From positions 1 through 61,988 of the forward strand of contig JAHBXV010000037.1 in NCBI GenBank assembly GCA_019636285.1: DNA of 61,988 nt, read 5' to 3'. The stretch comes from Planctomycetaceae bacterium (GTDB taxonomy: Bacteria > Planctomycetota > Planctomycetia > Planctomycetales > Planctomycetaceae). Under the pieces are notes generated by a model that had not been told where the DNA came from, ran no database searches, and saw nothing but the letters and a program-made list of their open reading frames with translations. A program made the translations under genes and the position numbers. Every line of letters begins with the position of its first letter. The stretch's first letter is position 1. This document shows positions 49,945 through 61,763 of the stretch, one piece after another.

Positions 49945-50799
49945 ATGCGGCTTCGACCTGATCTCTACAGCTTCGGTTTGGCGATCGCTCTTTGCGGATG
50001 CGGCCAGGACTTGGCGCCCCAACCCGCTGCTTCGCAAGTCGCGAGTCCGGCAACGCCCACGGCCGCCAACTCGGCTGACTCGTCAGAACCCGTTGTCGCC
50101 CAAAATGCGTCGATAATCGCGGCTCCCGCCGATGCTGCACTCCCATCACCAGAACAAATGGCTCCCGAAGAGGCCACCGCCCCAGCCGAATTGACGGAAG
50201 CACAACGCGCCTTTCGCGAACTGGTCACTGCTTCGGAGGGCGGCGATCCCGATGGTTGGTCGACGGCGGCCGGAAAGATCGGTGTTCTCGGGCCCGAGGC
50301 GCTACCGGCTTTGACGGAAGGACTTACCGCGAAGACACCGCTCGAACGCGAAATGGCGGCCATCTTCCTGGCGCAATTGGGATCCGAGGCGGAACCGGCC
50401 ATTCCTCAATTGACGACCGCTCTTGGCGATTCTTCGCCCTTCGTACGGGTCAACGCGGCTGCGACGCTGGCCTTTTTCCCGGATCACGTGGCGACCGCGA
50501 TGCCCGCGCTGCTGGAACTGCTCAAGAACGTCGATCCGAACGTGCGACAGACAGCCGCCATTGCCATTGGAAATTGCGGTGACCTGCTGGCCGATGGAAT
50601 TGCCCCACTGCAAGAACTGCTGCACGATCCCGAGTCATCGGTCCGGCTGGCAGCCGTCCGCGCGCTAGGCCAACTCGGCAAGTCGGCCACCCCGGCACTG
50701 GCCGCGATTCGGACGCTGGAAGCCGACGACGACGAAGGCGTCCGAACAGCAGCGGCCTCCGCGATCCAACTTATCAGCGCCGAGTCCGACGCTCCCTGA
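49945..50799 (+). CDS. HEAT-repeat lipoprotein
   Basis: A 284-aa predicted lipoprotein with signal YSFGLAIALCGCGQ, where the lipobox is ALCGC. An Ala/Pro/Thr/Ser-rich linker (residues 25-80) leads to HEAT-like repeats: KIGVLGPEALPALTEGL, LGSEAEPAIPQLTTALGD, PDHVATAMPALLELLK, IAIGNCGDLLADGIAPLQEL and LGQLGKSATPALAAIRTL. Such repeats mediate protein contacts; the partner is unknown. ATG 49945 follows AAGGAGG (49933-49939). A TTCCC-type hairpin follows the stop. Confidence 0.82.
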   Translation: MRLRPDLYSFGLAIALCGCGQDLAPQPAASQVASPATPTAANSADSSEPVVAQNASIIAAPADAALPSPEQMAPEEATAPAELTEAQRAFRELVTASEGGDPDGWSTAAGKIGVLGPEALPALTEGLTAKTPLEREMAAIFLAQLGSEAEPAIPQLTTALGDSSPFVRVNAAATLAFFPDHVATAMPALLELLKNVDPNVRQTAAIAIGNCGDLLADGIAPLQELLHDPESSVRLAAVRALGQLGKSATPALAAIRTLEADDDEGVRTAAASAIQLISAESDAP

Positions 50800-50836: not shown

Positions 50837-52024
50837 TTATTCGGGAATCTTGCCCAGAATCGGGACAATCTCGCGCTGAATCTCGCCTGCTGTGACAAGA
50901 ACCGTCCGGTCGAAGTCCACGAACACATTGACCTCGCTACGGATGCCGAATTCGGGCAAGTAAATACCCGGCTCAATTGAAAAGCACGTGCCGGGCATGA
51001 TTCGGCGGCTGTCGTGCGTTTCCAGGTTGTCGATGTTCGCGCCGTTGCCGTGGGTTTCGCGACCGATGCTGTGTCCCGTCCGGTGAACGAACGCGGTGCC
51101 ATACCCGGCCGCTTCGATCACTCCGCGACAGACGTCATCGACGTCGCAGCCACGTAGCGGACGATTGGCCGCGAATGCCTCCTTGACGGTCGCGATGGCC
51201 GCGTCGCGCGCGCGGGCCACAATGTCAAAAATCTCCCGGTACTTCGCTGGAACGGTCTCGCCGACATATCCCGTGCGGGTCAGATCGCTGTAGACGCCCT
51301 CGTCGCAATTGCACTTGGCCCACTGGTCGATGAGGACGAAGTCACCTTCGCGAATCGGCACATCGCCGGTCGAATAGTGAGGATCCCCGCTATGCGCGTT
51401 GACCGCTACGATGGGTGTCGAATCGGTCACCATGTCGTGGTCGCGAAAGTGGGTCTCAATTACCTGGGCCACGGCGGATTCAGTGGTTTCGCCGTGACTG
51501 CGAATCTGGCTCGCGATGAATTCCCAGGCCAGTCGAAAGGCGGAGTCCGTCACCTTGCCGGCCTCGCGGTGCAATTCCCACTGCCTGGGGGTCCAGACCG
51601 CTTCGAAGCGCTGGACGAGATCGCCGGATGAGACGATGTCGACGCCATTTGACTTCACCAGTTCCACGGTCCCAGCATCGACGCGCGACACATACGGGTT
51701 GCCATTGCGTGGGCTGTACTCCATCGCGATGCGCTGGCAGCCTTGCAGCAGACTGGCCACGCCCGCTTCGAACTCCTGCCAACGCAGGTAGATCGTCCGA
51801 TCCCCCGGCAGGTGGTCGAGCATTCCCGGTTCGATGCGATGGCAGAGCTTTTTCGGCGTGCCGCTCGCGGGAACGAAGTACATCCACCGCCGAGTCGCGT
51901 GGGCGTCGGGAGCGAACTCGACAATGCGACGCGCGAGGATGTTGCTTCCTCGAAAATCAAAGAGCAACCAGCCGTCCAAACCTTCTTCACGAATTGCCGC
52001 TTGAACCGCGTTCAGATCAAACAT
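50837..52024 (-). CDS. M24 family metallopeptidase (Xaa-Pro aminopeptidase-like)
   Basis: A 395-aa enzyme with a creatinase-like N-terminal domain and a pita-bread C-terminal domain. The five metal ligands are visible: FVLIDQW (Asp), VYSDLTRTG (Asp), VHRTGHSIGRE (His), CFSIEPGIYLPE (Glu) and GIRSEVNVFVDFD (Glu). It probably removes residues in front of Pro from short peptides. No signal peptide, so cytoplasmic. It lies 39 bases after the second CPFC gene and may be its downstream operon partner. Confidence 0.9.
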   Translation of the reverse strand: MFDLNAVQAAIREEGLDGWLLFDFRGSNILARRIVEFAPDAHATRRWMYFVPASGTPKKLCHRIEPGMLDHLPGDRTIYLRWQEFEAGVASLLQGCQRIAMEYSPRNGNPYVSRVDAGTVELVKSNGVDIVSSGDLVQRFEAVWTPRQWELHREAGKVTDSAFRLAWEFIASQIRSHGETTESAVAQVIETHFRDHDMVTDSTPIVAVNAHSGDPHYSTGDVPIREGDFVLIDQWAKCNCDEGVYSDLTRTGYVGETVPAKYREIFDIVARARDAAIATVKEAFAANRPLRGCDVDDVCRGVIEAAGYGTAFVHRTGHSIGRETHGNGANIDNLETHDSRRIMPGTCFSIEPGIYLPEFGIRSEVNVFVDFDRTVLVTAGEIQREIVPILGKIPE

Positions 52025-52063
52025 CCCGGATCTTTCACGACGTGAGAACTGGCGTGAACTCGA

Positions 52064-53272
52064 TCAGTCGGCGGAGCGAGGGAGCACGCCGCGATTGGTT
52101 TTCAGCAGCTCCGGCTCTTCCACTTCCACCCGCTTCAAGAGGGCTCGCGCGACGCGAACGGGCTCGGTCACCATGTCTGCCGGGGCATCGGCGGCAATTT
52201 GTCGGCTGCAAACCTGGGCGAACTGAATGATGGTCCGCCGGGCTTTTTCGTCCTGCCAGGCCCCTTTGCCGTAAGCAGCCGCCAGTTGCGGCATCACCGA
52301 CCAGTCTTCCCACCGCGCGAGGTCCACGGCGGCCACTTCGGCGAGTTCGTCCCGGTCGAGCATGCCCCGCATCGCGGCCCGCAAGTCGTCTCGCGGAATC
52401 TTCTCGTCGCCATAATCCCATAAGAAGCGGAGGGCGCCGAGAAATGCGTACGTCTCGCTCGAAGGCATCTCGCGATTGGCAACCTTGGCCTGGGACATGC
52501 TCTTCAGCCCTTCGGGACCGGTGAGCATCAGATACCCGGCCATCATGCCATCGATCCCCAGCCGCATTTCGTCGGAACGGGGTGGCCGCAGGACGACCTT
52601 CTCCAGGAATTTGGCGTCGTCCGCGTTTCCACACAGTCCCAGTACCAGCCCGTAGAATCCGCGACGCAGGATCGCGGTGGCATCTTTCTCGGGGTTATCG
52701 CGCGCCAGCCAAGTTCGCAGTTTTTCCCGCGAAAATGTGCCAGCAACGCTCGCCACATCCTGGTATTTGGCCCGCCCAAACTCAGCAAAAGCATCCCCGG
52801 CAATCAGCGCGTCGGGGTACTCCAGGAATCGGGCGTAATACTTGAGTCGTTCGGAAGCGGGTTCGGTGGGTGGGGGGGCCTGCCGCAGATACTCGAACGC
52901 AATCTCCGTGATCTCGATCGGCAGATCCCAGTCCTGAAACTCATCGCCGCCGCGTCCGAAAATCAGAAACAGGTTGCCGGGCTGCGACATGAGCAGGAAG
53001 TTGAGGACGAGCGGATCCCCCTTCTTCCAGGCCGTTTTGTCGGGCTGTTTGACAACCTGCATCACCGAAAAGTGCGTGGCTCCCGCATCGTCAGTCGCGG
53101 TGGTCTTCACCCATTGGCACAGGAAGACGAAGTCCGCGCTCGCCCGCTGTTCGGCGAGTGTCGGTGAACTCGGCGGACAGAAGGGACAGGCCATCGCGGG
53201 TCTTGGTCCCACGCTGGCAAGCACCAGACAGAGCCAGACGGCCGTTCGACGGAATCTCCGCAGGGTCACCAT
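52064..53272 (-). CDS. Secreted CPFC-type protein, copy B
   Basis: A 402-aa exported protein that I do not recognise beyond its paralogy with the next gene upstream. After the signal peptide (VWLCLVLASVGPRPAMA) comes ACPFCPPSSPTLAEQRASAD, then beta-rich FVFLCQWVKTT. This start resembles NTR/TIMP-like OB folds (a Cys pair at the mature N-terminus, then T-x-x-E...AD-V-F), but only as an inference. The rest (PTEPASERLKYYARFLEYPD onward) is helical, HEAT-like, and aligns with copy A block by block (GFYGLVLGLCGNADDAKFLE; LGIDGMMAGYLMLTGPEGLK). ATG 53272 has GGAG five bases upstream. Confidence 0.78.
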   Translation of the reverse strand: MVTLRRFRRTAVWLCLVLASVGPRPAMACPFCPPSSPTLAEQRASADFVFLCQWVKTTATDDAGATHFSVMQVVKQPDKTAWKKGDPLVLNFLLMSQPGNLFLIFGRGGDEFQDWDLPIEITEIAFEYLRQAPPPTEPASERLKYYARFLEYPDALIAGDAFAEFGRAKYQDVASVAGTFSREKLRTWLARDNPEKDATAILRRGFYGLVLGLCGNADDAKFLEKVVLRPPRSDEMRLGIDGMMAGYLMLTGPEGLKSMSQAKVANREMPSSETYAFLGALRFLWDYGDEKIPRDDLRAAMRGMLDRDELAEVAAVDLARWEDWSVMPQLAAAYGKGAWQDEKARRTIIQFAQVCSRQIAADAPADMVTEPVRVARALLKRVEVEEPELLKTNRGVLPRSAD

Positions 53273-53307
53273 TGTCTCCGACGGAACTGTAGCCGTTTGT
53301 GTTCGTG

Positions 53308-53380
53308 TGCTACTGGCTCCGCCAGTGCGTCTTTGTAGGGAAGAAGAAGACTAAAGACGCACTGGCGGAGCCAGTGGCAC
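53308..53380. repeat. CACTGGC-N3-GCCAGTG double palindrome, copy 2
   Basis: TGCTACTGGCTCCGCCAGTG (53308-53327) and CACTGGCGGAGCCAGTGGCA (53361-53380) pair with one mismatch; the arms extend inward by CGTCTTT/AAAGACG. It has the same design as 24165-24234. It lies between the two CPFC genes, just after the stop of copy A. Confidence 0.85.
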
Positions 53381-53384
53381 GCAC

Positions 53385-54593
53385 TCACTTCGTGATGAGG
53401 TAGAAACGCTTCGCGTCGCGGACGGTCTTGGGATCGGAAGACTCGATCTGCGCCAGCAGTTTCTCGGCCTGGGCCGCGTGCTCGGCGGCAGGCTTGCCTT
53501 CAGCGGCGGCGCCGGCTTTCTGGCTGGCGAGCAGGAACCGCACGATCGCGCGCTTGATCGAAGGAATGTCGTATTCTTCCTTGCCATACAGCGACATCAA
53601 CGAGTCCTGCACCGACCAGTCCTGCATCCGCGCGAGGTCGGCGATCACCAGATCGGCCAGTTCCGGCCGGTCCAGCAGGGTCCGCATCGAGGCTTTGAGG
53701 TTGTCGGCCGGAATTCGGCCATCGCCGTATTGCCACATGAACCGCAGCGCCTGCATGGCCGCGTACGTTTCGCTGAACGGCACGCTCTTGTCGATCAGTT
53801 TCCGGTCGGTCAACTTCTTCAGGCCTTCTTCGCCGGTGAGGAGGAGATAACCTCCCATGATGCCGTCGACTCCCAGGCGGAATTCATCACCCGTCTTGAA
53901 GATTCGTTCTTCCATGATCGATGCGTCTTCCGGCTTGCCGCACAGTCCCAGCATCAGCCCGTACAGCCCCAGTCGGCTGGGGGACGTTTTATCGCTGGCA
54001 ACCCACTTGCGCAACTCGTCACGCGGGAACTCCTTCGACAGCGGGGTGATATCTCCGTACGGGGCATTCGCGAACTCGCCGTAGGCATCCGTCGCGACTG
54101 CTTCGTCGGGGTTTTCCAGATACTTCAGGAAATACTTCAGTCGCTCCGTTGTCGGTTCTTCGGGGCGCGGTGCCTCCTTGATGTAGGCATAACTGTCCCT
54201 GGTCACTTCAAGGGGACTGTTCCAGTCGATCGACGAGGCCCCGCGAATCCCCAGCAAAAGAGCCAGATCGCCCTCTTTTCCCGCGCGATAGCGGGGCAGC
54301 GAGATCGACTCATCGGTCTTTACCGGCCAATCTTTCGATTGGACCGCGACGTCGAGGACGCGGTACCGGGTCGTGCCAGCATCGTCTTCCTTGGCTGGTT
54401 TGCCACCAGCCCAGCCAGCAAGCAGTGCCGCTTCCGACTGCGCGACCTGCTCGGTCAACGTCAGTGAAGGAGCGGAACAAAACGGGCAGGCCAACGCGAC
54501 ACCGGCCGAAAGTGTCATGACGCCGGCCATTGCCGCCAAGAGACGGCGAAGTCCGCGAACAGAGGGGGTGATCGTATTCGCTTGGTTGGTCAT
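53385..54593 (-). CDS. Secreted CPFC-type protein, copy A
   Basis: A 402-aa exported protein, paralogous to copy B. Signal peptide (RRLLAAMAGVMTLSAGVALA) and then CPFCSAPSLTLTEQVAQSEA; the mature N-terminus would begin at or next to the CPFC pair. The helical part has PTTERLKYFLKYLENPDEAV, GLYGLMLGLCGKPEDASIME, LGVDGIMGGYLLLTGEEGLK and AMQALRFMWQYGDGRIPADN, each with a counterpart in copy B. Function unknown. Its ATG overlaps the upstream CCFG lipoprotein stop by four bases, so the two are translationally coupled. Confidence 0.8.
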   Translation of the reverse strand: MTNQANTITPSVRGLRRLLAAMAGVMTLSAGVALACPFCSAPSLTLTEQVAQSEAALLAGWAGGKPAKEDDAGTTRYRVLDVAVQSKDWPVKTDESISLPRYRAGKEGDLALLLGIRGASSIDWNSPLEVTRDSYAYIKEAPRPEEPTTERLKYFLKYLENPDEAVATDAYGEFANAPYGDITPLSKEFPRDELRKWVASDKTSPSRLGLYGLMLGLCGKPEDASIMEERIFKTGDEFRLGVDGIMGGYLLLTGEEGLKKLTDRKLIDKSVPFSETYAAMQALRFMWQYGDGRIPADNLKASMRTLLDRPELADLVIADLARMQDWSVQDSLMSLYGKEEYDIPSIKRAIVRFLLASQKAGAAAEGKPAAEHAAQAEKLLAQIESSDPKTVRDAKRFYLITK

Positions 54594-55492
54594 TGTTCGA
54601 TTACCTCCGCGTCTTCAAGCCAATAGAGTCCGTACGGCTTGCCGCCATCCGCCAGCATCTCGATGCGAAATCGACCGACAACGTCGAACGGGCGATTCGC
54701 GATGTAGTTGGTCGTTGATTTGGGTTTCAGGTCGACCGCGATCAGATCATACACCTTGGGATCGCGGCCGAAACAGCAGATCTGGTTGTCACGCGCCAGG
54801 ACAAACTGCTGAATGCCCGTGGCTTCGAACGTCGGATACATGAACCCGCGCACGCGGATCATGCGGCCATTCAGCGCCGACAGCCAGCTTGGAAAGTGAT
54901 CGACGGCCGTCTCGGGAACCGGCTCCATGTTGAGCACTTTCAACAGGTCCAGGTCGTCATACGAAACTCGCAAGGCGCCGGTCGGGCCCTCGGCCTGAAA
55001 TGTCCGATTCGGCACCAGCAACTCGACCTTTCGAGGAGTCTCGGCGGCTGCCGCCGGGGCAGTGGTCGGTTTTGCGGATGTACCGTCGCCGCGAACCTGC
55101 ATGACCGAGGCCACGCTTCCGCCGTCAACGACATTAACCGGTGCCAATGCGGATGCGGGAATTTCGACGGTGTCGTGACTCGCTTCATCCGCGGAAGATG
55201 TCGTTGCCGATTCGGGGTCCGAGTTCGCCGTAACGGGCGTCGATGGGGTTACCGACGGCTGCGGACTGACCGCGGCGACCTCGGTTGACTTGGAAACGGA
55301 ATCGGTCGTGTCAACCTTGGCTCCGCCCTCGGCTTCGGGCGGCCGCTCGTCGGCGGTTTCTTTCCTGGACTGAGCCTCGACTTCTTCAAAGCTTGCATAG
55401 TCGGCCGTCGGGCTGGTTCCGCATCCCAGGAAAACTGTCGCAACGATCGACAGGACAGGCAGCACGGCCCAATGACTGGTTCCACGAAGCAT
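54590..55492 (-). CDS. Lipoprotein with C-terminal CCFG domain
   Basis: A 300-aa predicted lipoprotein: signal WAVLPVLSIVATVFLGCG with lipobox FLGC. Residues 30-190 are Ser/Thr/Ala-rich and probably disordered. The C-terminal 100 residues carry IRVRGFMYPTFEATGIQQFV, LARDNQICCFGRDPKVYDLI and RPFDVVGRFRIE, a domain shared with the next gene upstream. The G-[FY]-MYPT...F-V-L...CCFG pattern recalls DUF3299-like proteins, as an inference. ATG 55492 gives the lipoprotein signal; the open frame to 55591 was rejected. Confidence 0.75.
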   Translation of the reverse strand: MLRGTSHWAVLPVLSIVATVFLGCGTSPTADYASFEEVEAQSRKETADERPPEAEGGAKVDTTDSVSKSTEVAAVSPQPSVTPSTPVTANSDPESATTSSADEASHDTVEIPASALAPVNVVDGGSVASVMQVRGDGTSAKPTTAPAAAAETPRKVELLVPNRTFQAEGPTGALRVSYDDLDLLKVLNMEPVPETAVDHFPSWLSALNGRMIRVRGFMYPTFEATGIQQFVLARDNQICCFGRDPKVYDLIAVDLKPKSTTNYIANRPFDVVGRFRIEMLADGGKPYGLYWLEDAEVIEQ

Positions 55493-55622
55493 GCGGCGAG
55501 TTCCCGAGCTAGCAATCGACGGAGCGACAACCGTCGCTATTCCCCGGCGTCGTGCCGGAGCCCGATCCTCATGGTAACGGATTCCAGCCATGTCGCGGCA
55601 ACAAAACAGCCGATTTCTCTGC

Positions 55623-55725
55623 CGTTCTCAACCTCCGCCTGGGGACGCCGCCATTGTCGAGGCTCTGCCTCGGGCTCTCAAGAATAAGGCAGAGCCTCAA
55701 GAGAAGCCGTTTACCTGGGAACGAG
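55623..55725. repeat. TTCCCAGG/CCTGGGAA composite inverted repeat, copy 3
   Basis: CGTTCTCAACCTCCGCCTGG starts the element, GAGGCTCTGCCTC (from 55659) pairs with GGCAGAGCCTC (55688-55698), and CCTGGGAACG closes it near 55725. The design matches 9743-9830. It occupies the 249-base gap between the two CCFG genes; nothing else is seen in that gap. Confidence 0.7.
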
Positions 55726-55741
55726 AAGCCTGGCATCGAAA

Positions 55742-56464
55742 TCAATACGAAGTCCGCGCGGGGCTGAAGTAGTCCGCATCAAGCTGATAAATCGGGTTCA
55801 GGCCAGCCGGGTCCAGTTCAGCGGCCGTCTTGAACGTGCCGGCGACGGAAACGAGCCCCGTGCGAAAGTTGACCCCGTCGGGATTCTTGATCTGAACGAC
55901 GATCATGTCTGTCGGCGCGGGCTGACCCCCGAAGCAGCACTCACCCATGTCTTTGCACAAAACGAACGATGTCAGGCCATATTGCTCGCGCGTCGGATAC
56001 ATATAGCCCTTAAGGAAGACCGGTTTCCCGTCGAGTTCCTGGACCTGCGGAGGTGGCGTGGTGATTCCGTCTTTTTCTTCGAGACCGGCAGCCGAGATCT
56101 CGCGCGAAAAGCTGACGCGGCGAAATCCCTCGGGGACTTCGGTGAGGTAGCCGACCGTATGCACGGTCCCGGCAGTCGCGCCAATCGCCGCCTGGCAGAG
56201 CATGGCCCCCAACGCAACGCCCGTGCCGCTCCAGGCATCCGGTTCGGCGCGAATGACGCGAATCGCCCAGTAGCTCACGCCCATCGCCACGACGGAAACC
56301 AGCACGAGCGGTTCCCAGAAGAAGGCCGTCAGCGAGGCGAACACCAGACCGACCGAAATCGGCACCAGAACCGGCATCGGGCGATACTGAAATTCGTCCA
56401 CCATCTCGGCCGGTCGTTGCGCGAGCGGTTGTTCGGCAAGCGGGCGATCCACGACCAGTGACAT
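55742..56464 (-). CDS. Membrane-anchored protein with C-terminal CCFG domain
   Basis: A 240-aa protein with two or three membrane segments in residues 30-115 (VLVPISVGLVFASLTAFF; LVLVSVVAMGVSYWAI; GTGVALGAMLCQAAIGATA). The C-terminal part, probably outside the cytoplasm, has VFLKGYMYPTREQYGLTSFV, LCKDMGECCFGGQPAPTDMI and VSVAGTF, paralogous to the CCFG domain of the lipoprotein downstream. Function unknown. ATG 56464 follows AGGAG at nine bases. It is the first gene of the minus-strand cluster and divergent from the secretin. Confidence 0.78.
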   Translation of the reverse strand: MSLVVDRPLAEQPLAQRPAEMVDEFQYRPMPVLVPISVGLVFASLTAFFWEPLVLVSVVAMGVSYWAIRVIRAEPDAWSGTGVALGAMLCQAAIGATAGTVHTVGYLTEVPEGFRRVSFSREISAAGLEEKDGITTPPPQVQELDGKPVFLKGYMYPTREQYGLTSFVLCKDMGECCFGGQPAPTDMIVVQIKNPDGVNFRTGLVSVAGTFKTAAELDPAGLNPIYQLDADYFSPARTSY

Positions 56465-57119
56465 CGATCAGGTCTCCTCAATTCCGCGACGGCGGCACGT
56501 CCGCACACCGTTAACACAGCAGACTAACGCAGGAATTCGCCCGCTCAGACAATTTTCCGTCGCCGCACCCACAAAGTCCAGTCGCGAGGTCCAAATCGCG
56601 GGCTGATACCCGAATCGTGCGGCTTCGCACACCGGTTTCCGCCGAACGACACGCTCTGCAAGCAATTACGTCGAAATTGGCGTTCGCGTTTGCTCGCAAT
56701 TTGGGGTCGGAAAAGTTCCCGAACCCTTCGCAGTTCGTCGCAATTTGGGCAGTCCCATGAATGGCGAGGTGCCCGGTCGGCAAGGTTTGCCGGTTTTCGC
56801 GCCGTAAATCCAGCCCTGCTGGAAAGTTCCACAAATTCGGCTTGAACCATATTGACCGGTTCTTCGGCTTTTCAATATGACACCGCGTAACTGTCAACGT
56901 CGGATACCCATCTTTACGGATCATGTTTTTGGAATCAGCGCCTGCTCTGTTGTCGGAAACGGATTTCCGGCGAGGCAGGTGAGAATTTGGTGCGAGTGGA
57001 AGACTGGACACGGGCGTAACAGCCCCGCGCCTGGTCCAGACTGCTCGGCGGAGTTTTTGCTCCGTAGCCACGCGTCGAGCAACCAGCAGACCATCCCAGG
57101 ACTGAAGGAGGAACTGACC
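56465..57119. other. Divergent control region before the secretin gene
   Basis: This 655-base gap has no convincing gene; an open frame in phase with the secretin runs through the right half (56877 on) but lacks a start signal and family-like sequence. It contains a short direct repeat (CGCAATTTGGG at about 56693 and 56738) and a candidate promoter at 56852-56881. The untranslated leader of the secretin would be about 230 bases. Confidence 0.6.
56852..56881 (+). promoter_or_regulatory. Candidate sigma-70-type promoter for the secretin gene
   Basis: TTGACC at 56852-56857 and TATGAC at 56876-56881 with an 18-base spacer. It is a reasonable but imperfect match and is unproven. Confidence 0.35.
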
Positions 57120-60100
57120 TTGGGTAGGATCATCGGACTGATCGGGTGCACGGGCCTGGTCATCGCAGTCCTGCGGTTGACCAACCTGCAACAGGAAGAC
57201 CAGACACTGCTGGGGGGCGTGGAACGACCGACTCAGGCTACCGCCGCGTCGCCGCGGCACGCCTTTCGGCACGGCAAGGAGCAATACCTCCGCGGCCATT
57301 ATGCCGACGCCGTCCGGACGCTTGAAGCCTTGACAAAGTCTCCCGGCGATCTATCGCCGAGCGACGTCAAGGAGGCTCAGCAGTATCTCGCCAAAGCGCG
57401 GGTTCGGTTGGCCGGACAGAAGGACCACGCCCCGGTGATCCGCGGCCAGTCGGATCCCTTCGCCGATCCATTCGGTGAAGAGACGACGGCCGAGAGCCCA
57501 GCGGCTCCCACGGATGCCGCGAAGGCACGGATCGACCGCCTCATGGGTCAGGCGTATGCCGCCTATAAGGACGGTCGCCGCAATGAAGCCATCGGGCTGG
57601 CTCGCCAGGCCGACACCATTGCCAAAGAAATCAAACTGACGTTCGCGAAGGGCGAGCCGTCTCCCTCCCAATTCCTGGCGGCGATCGTCGAATCGCCGAA
57701 CCGTGGTACGGGAATCCAACTAGTCTCCGCCACGGACGACCCCTTTGCCGACACGGCTTCGGCTCCGGCCGAGGAAGCGGCCCCGGCAGCGGCTGTTGGT
57801 CAGAACAATCCAGCCGGATTGTCGAAATCGCTGATCGAACAGGCCCGTCAGGATCTCGCGAACGGTCATTTCGATGATGCTCGTCGCAAGGCCCTTCAGG
57901 CAGCCGAACTCGATACCGTCTACGGTTTGTTCGACGATCGGCCGGAACTGGTGCTCGCGGACATTGACCGTCGCGCCGGGACCGTGACGGTCGCGAAGTC
58001 GACACCGACGCCCGCGGCCGCTGCTCCGGTGGCTGCCGCCAAGGCCGATACCGCGAAGGCTCAAGCCCTGGAATTGCTGGCAAACGCCCGCAAGGCCATG
58101 GCCAGCGGCGATCTGACTTCGGCCCGCAGCCAGGCCGAAGCCGCCCAGGCCCTTGATGTTGCCTACGGTCTGTTTGAAGACAAGCCGGAATTGGTTCTGC
58201 AGGAAGTCGATGCCCGGATGGCGTTCGAGAACGTGGCCCAGAAGTCGACAACGACTCCTGCCGCCGCGACTCCGGCCTCTCCGGCAACGGCCTCACCGCA
58301 GGAAAGCCAGAAGGCTCGGGAACTGGTCGCCGCGGCGCGTCAGGCATTGACGGCTGGCGACTTTGACAAGGCCCGCGCGTTGGCTGTTGAAGCCGATGCC
58401 CTGAAGGCCGCGTACGGTTTGTTCGACGACCGCCCGGAACTGATCCTGGCGGAAGTTTCTCGACTGGGAAGCGGCAAGTCGGCCCGAATGGCGGACGGTC
58501 AGGAACCGGTCGCTTCGGCGACGCCGGCGACGTCAAAAAGCCCGCTGGAAGAAGCTCGCCACCTGTTGAAGCAGGCTCGCCAGGAAATGGCCGATGGTCG
58601 TGTCGTCGAGGCACGTTCGATGGCCCAGGCGGCGGAAAAGCTGAACGTCGCCTATGGCGTGTTTGATGATCGTCCGGAACTGGTCCTGTCCGATCTGGAC
58701 GCGATGGAACGGTCCGCGAACGTCGCCGGTCGGTCGACGAACAGCCTGCCTGGCCTTGGCAACTCGGCGACGCAGGTCTCGGCGAAAGAAGGACCTGGCA
58801 GCGGCGTGGCTCCGGCTGGTGGCGTCTTCGCCTCGGCGACATCGGAACTGCCCGCTGTTTCGACGGCCGGGCTTTCGGCGAACGAACTGTATGAACGCGG
58901 CATGGTGGCTCTGCGTGCGGGACACCGTGACGAAGCCTACCAGATGTTCCTCGCCTCTCATCAGACGGGAGAACGACTCGATGCCTTCCGCAATCAGCGT
59001 CTGCAAGACTTCCTGCGGGAACTGGCTCCTCGCAATGGCGGCGGCAACGGCATTCAGCAAGTCGTGAATAACCAGGAGGTCGACGTCCTGAATGAAGCGT
59101 CGCGAGAAGCGACCATTCAGATCGACCGTTTGCGGACCGAGACGCACAACGCGATCTTCAAGGCTGAACGGCTCCGTGAAAAGGATCCGGAGCAAGCCCT
59201 GGGGATTGTGCAGCAGGCGATCGCCGCCGTCGAAGGGGCCAGCCTGACGCCGGAAGCTTCCGCCCCGATGCTCCGTTCGCTCACCCGCACGCAGAACTCG
59301 CTGCAAGGCGAAATCACGCGGCAGGCTCCGAACCTGGAACTGAAGCGCCGCAACGAAGAAGTTCGTAGCAGCGTGGAGACCGACCTCAAGAACAAGATCC
59401 GCATCGAGCAGGAATACGCCAAGCTGGTCGAAGAATACAACGAACTCTTCAAGCAGCAGCGGTATGCCGAAGCGGAAGTGATTGCGAAGAAGGCCAAGGA
59501 GCTCAATCCCAAGGAAGCGACTTCCGAGGTCATGGTCTACAAGGCCCAGATCGCCCGCCGCGTGGCCAGCAACAACGATCTGAAGGCTCGCAAGGAAGAA
59601 TCGTTCTGGAAACAGCTCGATGACGTCGAACAGGCCGCGATTGCCAACGTCAACGACGAACATCCGTACGTGTTTGGCGATGGCTGGGGCAAGATCACTG
59701 CTCGCCGGAATGGCAAGTATCGGTCCGACAATCGCACCCGCAGCCCGGAAGAACTGCACATCGAGGAATCTCTGGGCAAGCGGATCTCGCTCCACGAGGA
59801 AAATGTTCCGCTCGGTGAAGTCCTGAAGAAAATCGCGTTGATCGCTGACTTCAGCATCGTCCTGGACGATGTCGGCCTCGCCGACGAATCGGCCTCAAGC
59901 GACATGCCGATCTCGATCGACGTCGACGGGATCACCGTCAAGAGCGCCCTGAACCTGATTCTCGATCGGTTCAACCTGGCCTATCTGATTCAGAACGAAG
60001 TCTTGACGATCACCAGCCGCATGCGTCAGCAGGGCGAAATGCTCGTCCAGACCTACCCGGTCGCCGACCTGGTCGTTCCCATCCCGAATTACATGCCCGG

Positions 60101-61763
60101 ATCGATCTTCGGTTCCGGAGCGATGGCTTCGCAGATGGGACAGACTCCGAACGGCATGATGAGCATTCCCCCGACGCAGGTGCCGATGGCCGGTCAGGGG
60201 TTCGCACAGATCGGCCCGAACGCCGGAGCGATGGGGATGTCCGGCCAGGGTTCCGATCGGAACAGTTCCGCCGCGAGCAGCCAGCCTGACTTCGTCACGC
60301 TCACCGACCTGCTCACATCGACGATTGCTCCCGATTCGTGGCAGGAAACAGGCGGGCCGGCCTCGGTCAAGGCTTCGGAAACGACGCTCAGCCTCGTGAT
60401 TCGCCAGACTCAGAAGGTTCACGAAGAAATCGCCGACCTGCTCGATCAGTTGCGGCGGCTTCAGGATCTCCAGGTGACCATCGAAGTCCGGTTCATCACC
60501 GTGCGTGATAACTTCTTCGAACGCATCGGGATCGACTTCGACTTCAACCTGCAAGACACGGTTGGCGATCCGCAGCGAGACAACCGGGGACTGCCTTTGC
60601 CCACGTTTGGTGCCGTCCAGCAGCCTGGCTTCGGTGCGGCTGGTCAGCAGCAGCAGGGGAACCAGGGGAACACCGGCGGTCAGCTCGGTATCGGCGGCGG
60701 TGGTCAGCAGGGCCAGCAAGGCCAGCAGGGTCAGCAAGGCCAACAGCAGCAGGGTGGTGGCGGCTTGTTCCAGCCGAACCTGCAGCGGAACCTGGTCAAC
60801 CGCGACCGTTATCCGCGAAACGGGACGATCGTTGGTTTGAGCCAACCCGATCAGTTTAGCGGCGACCTCGACATTCCCTTCCGTCAGGGTTCGTTCGAAG
60901 TCGGGATTCCGACGTTCGGCGGATTCAACCCGAACGCCGGTGTTCAGGTGGGGATGGCGATTCTGAGCGACATCGAAGCGTTCTTCTTCATCCAGGCCGC
61001 TCAGGCCGACAGCCGAACGAACCTGATGTTCGCTCCGAAAATCACGCTGTTCAACGGGCAGCAGGCCTCGATCTCGGACTCGGTGCAACGACCGTTCGTC
61101 GTCAGCGTGATTCCGACCGTTGGCTTCGGAACCGCCGGTTTCCAGCCGATCATCCAGACGATTCCCTCGGGGATTACGCTCCAGGTGACGGCGGTGATCT
61201 CGGCCGACCGACGATTCGTGCGGCTCAACCTGATTCCGTTCTTCTCGGAAGTGACCGACGTCTTCACCTTCTCGTTCCAGGGTGGTGCGGGCAACGCCGG
61301 ACAACAAGGTCAGGCGGGCCAGGGCGGCGGCTTAGGTGGCGGCGGCCAGGGTGGCCAGGGCTTCCAGGGTGGCGGCGGTCAGTTTGGTATCGGCGGCGGC
61401 GGCCAGTTCGGCCAAGGCGGTGGTGGTGGCCAGTTGGGCCAGGGTGGCGGACAGCAGGGGAACCAGCAGGGTGGCTTCGGCAACCAGACGGTGACCGTGC
61501 AACAGCCAGTCGTGCAGGTCACCACGGTTCTCACCACGGTGAGCGTCCCCGATGGCGGTACCGTCCTCCTGGGCGGCATCAAGCGGTTGCGGGAAGGCCG
61601 AAACATGGCCGGTGTCCCGATCCTCAACAAGATTCCGTACGTCAGCCGTCTGTTCAAGAACAGCGGGGTTGGCCGCGAAACGGAAAGCGTGATGCTGATG
61701 GTGACTCCTCGAATCATCATCCAGGAGGAAGAGGAAGAACTGCTCGGCATTCCGGCCAACTGA
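57120..61763 (+). CDS. Very large secretin (type II/III secretion or type IV pilus outer-membrane channel) with helical N-terminal repeats
   Basis: A 1547-aa exported secretin-family protein; typical GspD or PilQ is 600-800 aa. TTG 57120 has AAGGAGG (57105-57111) eight bases upstream. Residues 1-20 (LGRIIGLIGCTGLVIAVLRL) are a membrane or signal segment. Four tandem helical repeats lie at about 237-287, 316-367, 400-450 and 480-531, each ending in YGLFDDRPELVL-like sequence. A coiled region (700-880) precedes secretin N-domains (VPLGEVLKKIALIADFSIVL; DGITVKSALNLILDRFNLAY; LQVTIEVRFITVRDNFFERI). Gln/Gly-rich stretches (about 1164-1217 and 1388-1454) interrupt the C-terminal channel domain, which ends VSVPDGGTVLLGGIKRLREG and PYVSRLFKNSG. 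Confidence 0.88.
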   Translation: MGRIIGLIGCTGLVIAVLRLTNLQQEDQTLLGGVERPTQATAASPRHAFRHGKEQYLRGHYADAVRTLEALTKSPGDLSPSDVKEAQQYLAKARVRLAGQKDHAPVIRGQSDPFADPFGEETTAESPAAPTDAAKARIDRLMGQAYAAYKDGRRNEAIGLARQADTIAKEIKLTFAKGEPSPSQFLAAIVESPNRGTGIQLVSATDDPFADTASAPAEEAAPAAAVGQNNPAGLSKSLIEQARQDLANGHFDDARRKALQAAELDTVYGLFDDRPELVLADIDRRAGTVTVAKSTPTPAAAAPVAAAKADTAKAQALELLANARKAMASGDLTSARSQAEAAQALDVAYGLFEDKPELVLQEVDARMAFENVAQKSTTTPAAATPASPATASPQESQKARELVAAARQALTAGDFDKARALAVEADALKAAYGLFDDRPELILAEVSRLGSGKSARMADGQEPVASATPATSKSPLEEARHLLKQARQEMADGRVVEARSMAQAAEKLNVAYGVFDDRPELVLSDLDAMERSANVAGRSTNSLPGLGNSATQVSAKEGPGSGVAPAGGVFASATSELPAVSTAGLSANELYERGMVALRAGHRDEAYQMFLASHQTGERLDAFRNQRLQDFLRELAPRNGGGNGIQQVVNNQEVDVLNEASREATIQIDRLRTETHNAIFKAERLREKDPEQALGIVQQAIAAVEGASLTPEASAPMLRSLTRTQNSLQGEITRQAPNLELKRRNEEVRSSVETDLKNKIRIEQEYAKLVEEYNELFKQQRYAEAEVIAKKAKELNPKEATSEVMVYKAQIARRVASNNDLKARKEESFWKQLDDVEQAAIANVNDEHPYVFGDGWGKITARRNGKYRSDNRTRSPEELHIEESLGKRISLHEENVPLGEVLKKIALIADFSIVLDDVGLADESASSDMPISIDVDGITVKSALNLILDRFNLAYLIQNEVLTITSRMRQQGEMLVQTYPVADLVVPIPNYMPGSIFGSGAMASQMGQTPNGMMSIPPTQVPMAGQGFAQIGPNAGAMGMSGQGSDRNSSAASSQPDFVTLTDLLTSTIAPDSWQETGGPASVKASETTLSLVIRQTQKVHEEIADLLDQLRRLQDLQVTIEVRFITVRDNFFERIGIDFDFNLQDTVGDPQRDNRGLPLPTFGAVQQPGFGAAGQQQQGNQGNTGGQLGIGGGGQQGQQGQQGQQGQQQQGGGGLFQPNLQRNLVNRDRYPRNGTIVGLSQPDQFSGDLDIPFRQGSFEVGIPTFGGFNPNAGVQVGMAILSDIEAFFFIQAAQADSRTNLMFAPKITLFNGQQASISDSVQRPFVVSVIPTVGFGTAGFQPIIQTIPSGITLQVTAVISADRRFVRLNLIPFFSEVTDVFTFSFQGGAGNAGQQGQAGQGGGLGGGGQGGQGFQGGGGQFGIGGGGQFGQGGGGGQLGQGGGQQGNQQGGFGNQTVTVQQPVVQVTTVLTTVSVPDGGTVLLGGIKRLREGRNMAGVPILNKIPYVSRLFKNSGVGRETESVMLMVTPRIIIQEEEEELLGIPAN

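Follow-up and report, generated by a model that had tools for sequence, protein, structure and literature searches.

CPFC and DUF3299-type CCFG proteins of planctomycetes as candidate envelope partners of a Zrg-type ABC transporter

Contig JAHBXV010000037.1 of a Planctomycetaceae bacterium (the window, i.e. the whole stretch of 61,988 nucleotides analysed here) carries a minus-strand cluster encoding two exported paralogues with the motif CPFC (CPFC1 and CPFC2) and two anchored proteins with the motif CCFG (D and E). The question raised by this locus is what these four proteins do together. We propose, with a probability of about 0.62, that all four are subunits, on the periplasmic side, of an ATP-binding cassette (ABC) transporter that is a variant of the Zrg type (MacB family) and carries zinc or a different zinc-responsive metal. 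This reading draws on computed gene linkage, co-occurrence with a permease, DUF3299 identity of the CCFG domain, relationship of the permease to ZrgB, near-absence of ZrgA, a dyad found in relatives and motif conservation.

The cluster and its conservation

From upstream to downstream the cluster reads E, D, CPFC1, CPFC2 and an M24 peptidase gene, and the five open reading frames (ORFs) were all recovered where the first-pass annotation had placed them. The assignment of signal peptides, lipobox and membrane segments is by eye throughout. Protein E (55742..56464, minus strand) combines an N-terminal hydrophobic membrane domain with a C-terminal DUF3299 domain (ZrgE-like, OB-fold) bearing MYPT and CCFG, assigned by Pfam, profile and model. 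Protein D (54590..55492, minus) is a probable lipoprotein (FLGC), and its C-terminal CCFG domain was recognised by identity to that of E: the two have ~130 residues in common, with MYP and CCFG invariant and 28% identity across the domain. CPFC1 (53385..54593, minus) is exported and presents CPFC at its mature N-terminus; profile and AlphaFold give it a small beta domain and a helical body resembling HEAT/ARM repeats; CPFC2 (52064..53272, minus) is its tandem paralogue (39-40% identical; 40%, E 1.7e-88 in one comparison of the pair). In both, the hydrophobic leader ends directly before the motif (ALA/CPFC and AMA/CPFC, the slash marking its end). The stop codon of D and the start codon of CPFC1 overlap as ATGA (54590..54593, minus), an arrangement that may couple their translation. 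The paralogue pair, the domain shared by the two anchored proteins and the overlap had all been claimed from the sequence before, and all were borne out.

We then followed both families across the phylum (294 genomes). CPFC was matched by its profile in 23 genomes: 17/17 of the window's family, 3/3 of a sister family and three of a third family. The CCFG profile matched 112 (E <= 1e-3). CPFC and CCFG genes were adjacent on one strand in 16/17 genomes of the window's family, G216 being the exception, and in 3/3 of the sister family. The set described earlier is thus conserved and co-located in 19 of the 20 CPFC-holding genomes of these two families. The co-occurrence expected of it held in one direction, CPFC coming with CCFG, but not in the other: 89 of the 112 CCFG genomes had no CPFC match. 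Solitary second CPFC copies were found in G105 and G283. In the three genomes of the third family, contig ends truncate the CPFC genes, and CCFG lies on other contigs. Among named genomes, Schlesneria and Planctomycetaceae assemblies come nearest to that of the window. CPFC1, CPFC2 and the M24 gene stand together in Schlesneria loci L003-L008 and L010, and D and E were not matched in the DNA fetched.

The CCFG domain and the transporter core

The CCFG domain belongs to DUF3299, the ZrgE family. Protein E passes the curated cut-off of Pfam PF11736 (6.2e-5, 23.5 bits, cut-off 22), as do three of four CCFG proteins scanned in relatives. A profile of six CCFG domains gave a single significant match among PDB sequences, 4hsp (1.9e-6), with CCFG and flanking residues aligned on ACIH and its surroundings, first Cys on Cys. 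The same structure was the best match of the AlphaFold model of the E domain (predicted local distance difference test (pLDDT) 78.7, six sequences; Foldseek 1.5e-7; Z 10.6 across 112 residues, 3.4 A), the next rows being OB-fold proteins within ~1 Z. 4hsp is PA4066, described as a ZrgE homologue in a passage of PMC9820375, and zrgE is annotated as DUF3299 in one of PMC9817125. The D counterpart of L084 had no DUF3299 match in Pfam at E <= 0.1, none of the four exported window proteins exceeded a cut-off in NCBIfam, and a planctomycete DUF3299 protein used as query matched nothing on plasmids. In L107 (8337-9941), whose genome has no CPFC match, the CCFG domain ends a much longer protein directly after ABC genes.

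In nine of the 20 CPFC-holding genomes (7/17 of the window's family, 2/3 of the sister family), the CCFG/CPFC genes are preceded on their own strand by genes for an ABC ATPase and a MacB-type permease. These permeases carry MacB_PCD and FtsX domains (Pfam), and the ATPases are 61-67% identical to one of two queries, or are a query themselves. The ABC genes adjoin the CCFG/CPFC genes in seven of the nine loci, with two to four predicted ORFs between them in L077 and L083. The order is ATPase, permease, CCFG, CCFG, CPFC in the window's family and ATPase, permease, CPFC, CCFG, CCFG in the sister family. One such permease gene per genome was found in 24/24 genomes searched (E <= 1e-30), three times as two pieces of one gene. 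That of the window genome (G000:C23:36883-38217) is 57% identical to the L088 permease and has an ATPase gene beside it; this partner transporter, unlinked to the cluster, had been missed by the first-pass annotation. Several members, including the window genome's, have a His-rich loop (5 His in 40 residues in the latter).

Across the 294 genomes, CCFG (E <= 1e-3) and the permease (E <= 1e-15) occurred together in 107, CCFG only in five, the permease only in 16 and neither in 166 (Fisher p 1.6e-55, uncorrected for kinship). The two lay within 5 kb on one contig in at least 73 of 97 genomes, and in 66 of 80 outside the window's family; this is a lower bound counted on 97 of the 107 genomes holding both, the other ten being left out. 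Chance or hitch-hiking neighbours without common function would agree with ABC genes on another contig in the window genome, and with CPFC apart from CCFG in the fetched Schlesneria loci and G216. Against the linkage in two families and this co-occurrence across the phylum, such an explanation is largely refuted already and we give it almost no weight.

We examined the relation to Zrg systems with the L088 permease as tblastn query, which matched 118 plasmid records. Of six matched permease loci opened, four carry DUF3299 directly downstream: Phaeobacter, with a Fur regulator and DUF2796 upstream (ZrgA confirmed at 1.4e-49), Rhodobacteraceae SC52, also with DUF2796, Alisedimentitalea and Ruegeria conchae. 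DUF3299 was not directly downstream of the weaker matches in Deinococcus and Paracoccus. In a tree of 27 permeases, a branch (100/99) set the planctomycete permeases, the four DUF3299-linked ones and the two weaker ones apart from four own-genome FtsX-type proteins, two of which are long branches; the planctomycete group was not resolved from the Deinococcus and Paracoccus permeases. ZrgA (PF10986, DUF2796) exceeded its cut-off in just one of the 294 genomes, and was not found in the window genome; at E <= 0.001 it appeared in 11, ten of them below cut-off and four in the window's family. Since ZrgA is nearly absent while a Zrg-type core and DUF3299 are present, the planctomycete system is a variant and not ZrgABCDE. 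The label of an undescribed system, given to the locus earlier, is not supported: the CCFG domain and the core are of known kinds, and only the CPFC family is without description. In listings of papers on DUF3299, the Zrg names and planctomycete zinc ABC transporters, within a scope that left out most subscription papers, no account of this arrangement was found.

A MacB-type core might instead be an exporter of a metallophore, a metal complex or another ligand, in which case the CPFC and CCFG proteins would not be import receptors but would serve as adaptors or in quality control. The Zrg operon of Pseudomonas, PA4063-PA4066, is interpreted as a cobalt-pyochelin exporter in PMC11481552, and two alphaproteobacterial loci have an HlyD-like gene ahead of their ABC genes. 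Vibrio work, by contrast, reports zinc acquisition (passages of PMC9820375 and PMC9817125), and no HlyD-like gene was recognised in the mapped planctomycete operons from gene maps and N-termini, without a dedicated search. We consider export of this kind unlikely, though it is the strongest competitor of the variant Zrg transporter proposed here.

The CPFC family and its remote homologues

CPFC constitutes, on the sequence comparisons made, a family apparently without a described Pfam or NCBIfam counterpart: nothing exceeded a cut-off in NCBIfam (the two window proteins) or Pfam, and the CPFC profile found nothing significant among PDB sequences. The AlphaFold model of mature CPFC1 (pLDDT 91.4, 21 sequences) comprises helical repeats and, over roughly mature residues 1-95, a small beta domain, CxxC sitting at the lower-confidence N-terminus. 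Its fold matches were HEAT/ARM-like and not decisive (Foldseek best 4.8e-4; Z 12.9 across 143 residues, a level common among helical repeats), and Pfam HEAT_2 appeared below cut-off in 2/21 members (best 0.0084) and in L093 (0.0011). The first 95 residues may resemble an NTR/TIMP-like OB domain.

The motif is well kept. C-P-x-C follows the leader in 51 of 57 distinct CPFC-family ORFs; of the remaining six, three are truncated by contig ends, two retain just one Cys and one reads CPFG. The residue preceding the motif Cys is Ala in 45 of 50 ORFs measured. A classic lipobox pattern fits 7 of the 51 CPxC ORFs, so that lipidation is possible in some CPFC proteins; the two window proteins do not fit. 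L086 (8281-14128) holds four CPFC-family ORFs in a row, two without CPxC.

Remote homologues were met in alphaproteobacteria. In Alisedimentitalea, the protein downstream of DUF3299 in the Zrg-type operon is one (hmmsearch 4.4e-7, scaled to 100,000 sequences), and alignment-to-alignment comparison, which spanned 320 columns and took in the N-terminus, gave a probability of 99.1% (E 4e-19). ZrgA was not found in this operon, whose two small upstream genes had no ZrgA match. The CPFC hmmsearch of plasmids listed eight plasmid records. The homologues of SC52 and Rhizobium CC1099 have HupE/UreJ and peptidyl-prolyl isomerase genes as neighbours, and that of Ruegeria THAF33 lies apart from HupE/CobW-type genes. 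The SC52 cluster (L164, 4989-10840) also holds a CobW GTPase gene. According to PMC7689651, HupE/UreJ proteins transport nickel or cobalt, and COG0523 GTPases support the assembly of metallocentres.

The N-termini of the remote homologues read CGFH, CVLC, CGVC and CSVC, i.e. across phyla position four of the CPFC motif holds Cys, with a single case of His; in DUF3299, the planctomycete CCFG corresponds to ACIH. This Cys/His alternation at both motifs suggests a metal site. CxxC and adjacent Cys pairs are also classic redox motifs, and both motifs lie outside the cytoplasm by sequence. The proteins might accordingly form a thiol redox system, with catalytic or structural disulphides for envelope folding or cytochrome/copper-site assembly. 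Metal ligands fit better the change of the second Cys to His in a CPFC homologue and of CCFG to CIHT/CIHV-type in DUF3299, the genomic context is that of metal, and no thioredoxin-like fold was among the listed matches of the CPFC1 or E-domain models, though this excludes nothing. A redox role appears to us improbable, and more so than export.

Candidate operator, proposed metal relay and comparison with known systems

A palindrome scan upstream of the operons gave TTGCAAN5TTGCAA. With at most one mismatch, this dyad occurred eight times in 20 loci, seven of them close before the ATPase gene of seven of the nine complete operons (L077, L079, L082, L083, L084, L085 and L094). Five of these seven loci belong to one genus, leaving three independent genera, and the result is partly post hoc, since L082, L084 and L085 first showed the dyad and the remaining loci were scanned for it afterwards. 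In L093 a related site differs from TGCAACNNNGTTGCA by two mismatches, and L088 has none. The L085 site has a 15-base core in common with ATGCAACtgaGTTGCAT, which a passage of PMC545781 gives as a predicted Zur site of Desulfovibrio desulfuricans. The exact dyad was found 12 times in 20 genomes, six times just before the L085 operon, a Fur-family gene, a ZIP transporter gene, a 175-residue gene followed by CobW, or two MerC genes; no metal gene was recognised downstream of the other six, two checked by Pfam and the rest by eye. The sites before the Fur-family (L171), ZIP, MerC and CobW genes (L171, L174, L177, L178, L182) outline a candidate planctomycete Zur regulon.

Two other boxes were tried and rejected. 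A gammaproteobacterial Zur consensus, GTTATANTATAAC, was absent within two mismatches from all 20 loci scanned. TGCAACNNNGTTGCA, the predicted Desulfovibrio box minus its outer bases, gave nine exact sites against 11 for the reversed control in 20 genomes and within one mismatch marks one operon only, so this box alone is weak and the evidence is the position of the looser TTGCAA dyad.

We can formulate how the variant Zrg transporter might work. Its inner-membrane core would be the separate ATPase and permease, encoded elsewhere in the window genome. Membrane-anchored E and lipid-anchored D would be DUF3299/ZrgE-type OB-fold proteins held beside the permease, each offering two adjacent Cys at the site that is Cys-x-His in proteobacterial DUF3299. 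CPFC1 and CPFC2 would be soluble, their mature N-terminus forming a C-x-x-C metal claw with the small beta domain on a helical-repeat scaffold, and would occupy ZrgA's place, delivering metal to the anchored proteins and the permease or receiving it from them. Most likely this is an envelope metal relay, in which CPFC takes the metal by its Cys claw and hands it to the DUF3299 Cys-Cys site and on to the permease, the MacB-type permease carrying the metal, alone or in a complex, through the membrane. That metal is bound, that it is zinc, that it passes from part to part and in which direction are what we infer. Zinc is favoured because of the candidate operator and the Zrg precedent, and direction is left undecided because Vibrio reports give import and the Pseudomonas study favours outward transport of a cobalt complex. 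The metal role proposed earlier from exposed Cys pairs gains independent support from the ZrgB-related permease, DUF3299, the Cys/His alternation, the dyad in relatives and the HupE neighbours of remote homologues.

Several observations weigh against this reading. The ABC genes of the window genome are on another contig, unlinked to the cluster, and neither the start of the window operon nor these genes carry the dyad even at two mismatches; the window genome has three dyad sites (at most one mismatch) against six for the control, none beside a metal gene recognised by eye, and over the 20 genomes the exact dyad is not clearly over-frequent (12 against 7 in the reversed control). The His-rich loop is not universal, being absent e.g. 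in L093, L107 and Phaeobacter, and CPxC is lost in three CPFC paralogues. Protein D alone has no DUF3299 match in Pfam at E <= 1. The HMMER match of Alisedimentitalea is significant in the helical part only and not at the N-terminus, its operon represents one lineage (two near-identical records), and no annotated ABC or DUF3299 gene adjoins the CPFC homologues of the remaining plasmid loci inspected. Finally, passages of two papers report that PA4066, which lacks the Cys-Cys of planctomycete CCFG, has no evident ability to bind Zn (PMC11481552) and that single zrgD or zrgE knock-outs are without effect (PMC9820375).

More tentatively, and at somewhat below even odds, CPFC may represent a class of metal-receiving partners of Zrg/MacB-type transporters that is new and spans phyla. 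An N-terminal Cys-x-x-Cys/His claw on a helical-repeat scaffold would replace ZrgA, with Cys-Cys DUF3299 as anchored relay, and DUF3299/ZrgE, for which no function is known, would then itself be a metal relay. The cargo, direction and accessory proteins of these transporters are disputed, between zinc import in Vibrio and cobalt-metallophore export in Pseudomonas. A variant keeping the core and DUF3299 without ZrgA, with Cys ligands for Cys/His, is a natural comparison, and two concrete metal-site predictions follow from it.

Some neighbours stand apart from the system. The M24 Xaa-Pro peptidase-like gene (50837..52024, minus; Pfam PF00557, 2.5e-43) follows CPFC2 in the window, in the Schlesneria loci above and in L088, and the reason for this linkage is not obvious. 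On the plus strand, a probable exported HEAT-repeat protein (49945-50799; HEAT_2 2.7e-27) converges on the cluster, and a divergent gene (56877-61763) encodes a 1628-residue protein with repeated YGLFDDRPELVL-type units, whose C-terminus may resemble a secretin.

Compared with ZrgABCDE of Vibrio (PA4063-PA4066 of Pseudomonas), the planctomycete system has the same split ATPase and MacB-type permease, a DUF3299 protein, a free periplasmic partner and a Zur-box-like candidate operator, the latter in relatives. It differs in that the phylum is nearly devoid of ZrgA/DUF2796, and in that the window's and sister families possess two DUF3299 proteins, both anchored and Cys-Cys, with the CPFC family added and often unlinked from the ABC genes. 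CPFC would share with ZrgA (DUF2796, PF10986) the position of free periplasmic partner of a ZrgBC-type core; whereas ZrgA is described as ferredoxin-like (passage of PMC9820375), CPFC matches no such family and is modelled as a beta domain with helical repeats. With DUF1980_C, the YcgQ-type permease partner, the likeness is limited to the sole Pfam match of D alone (0.046, below cut-off), no more than a lead. The likeness to DUF3299/4hsp (PA4066) is in sequence profile, fold and the first Cys of CCFG on the Cys of ACIH; the planctomycete domain has a second Cys where PA4066 has Ile then His, and is fused to a membrane domain (E) or a lipoprotein stalk (D).

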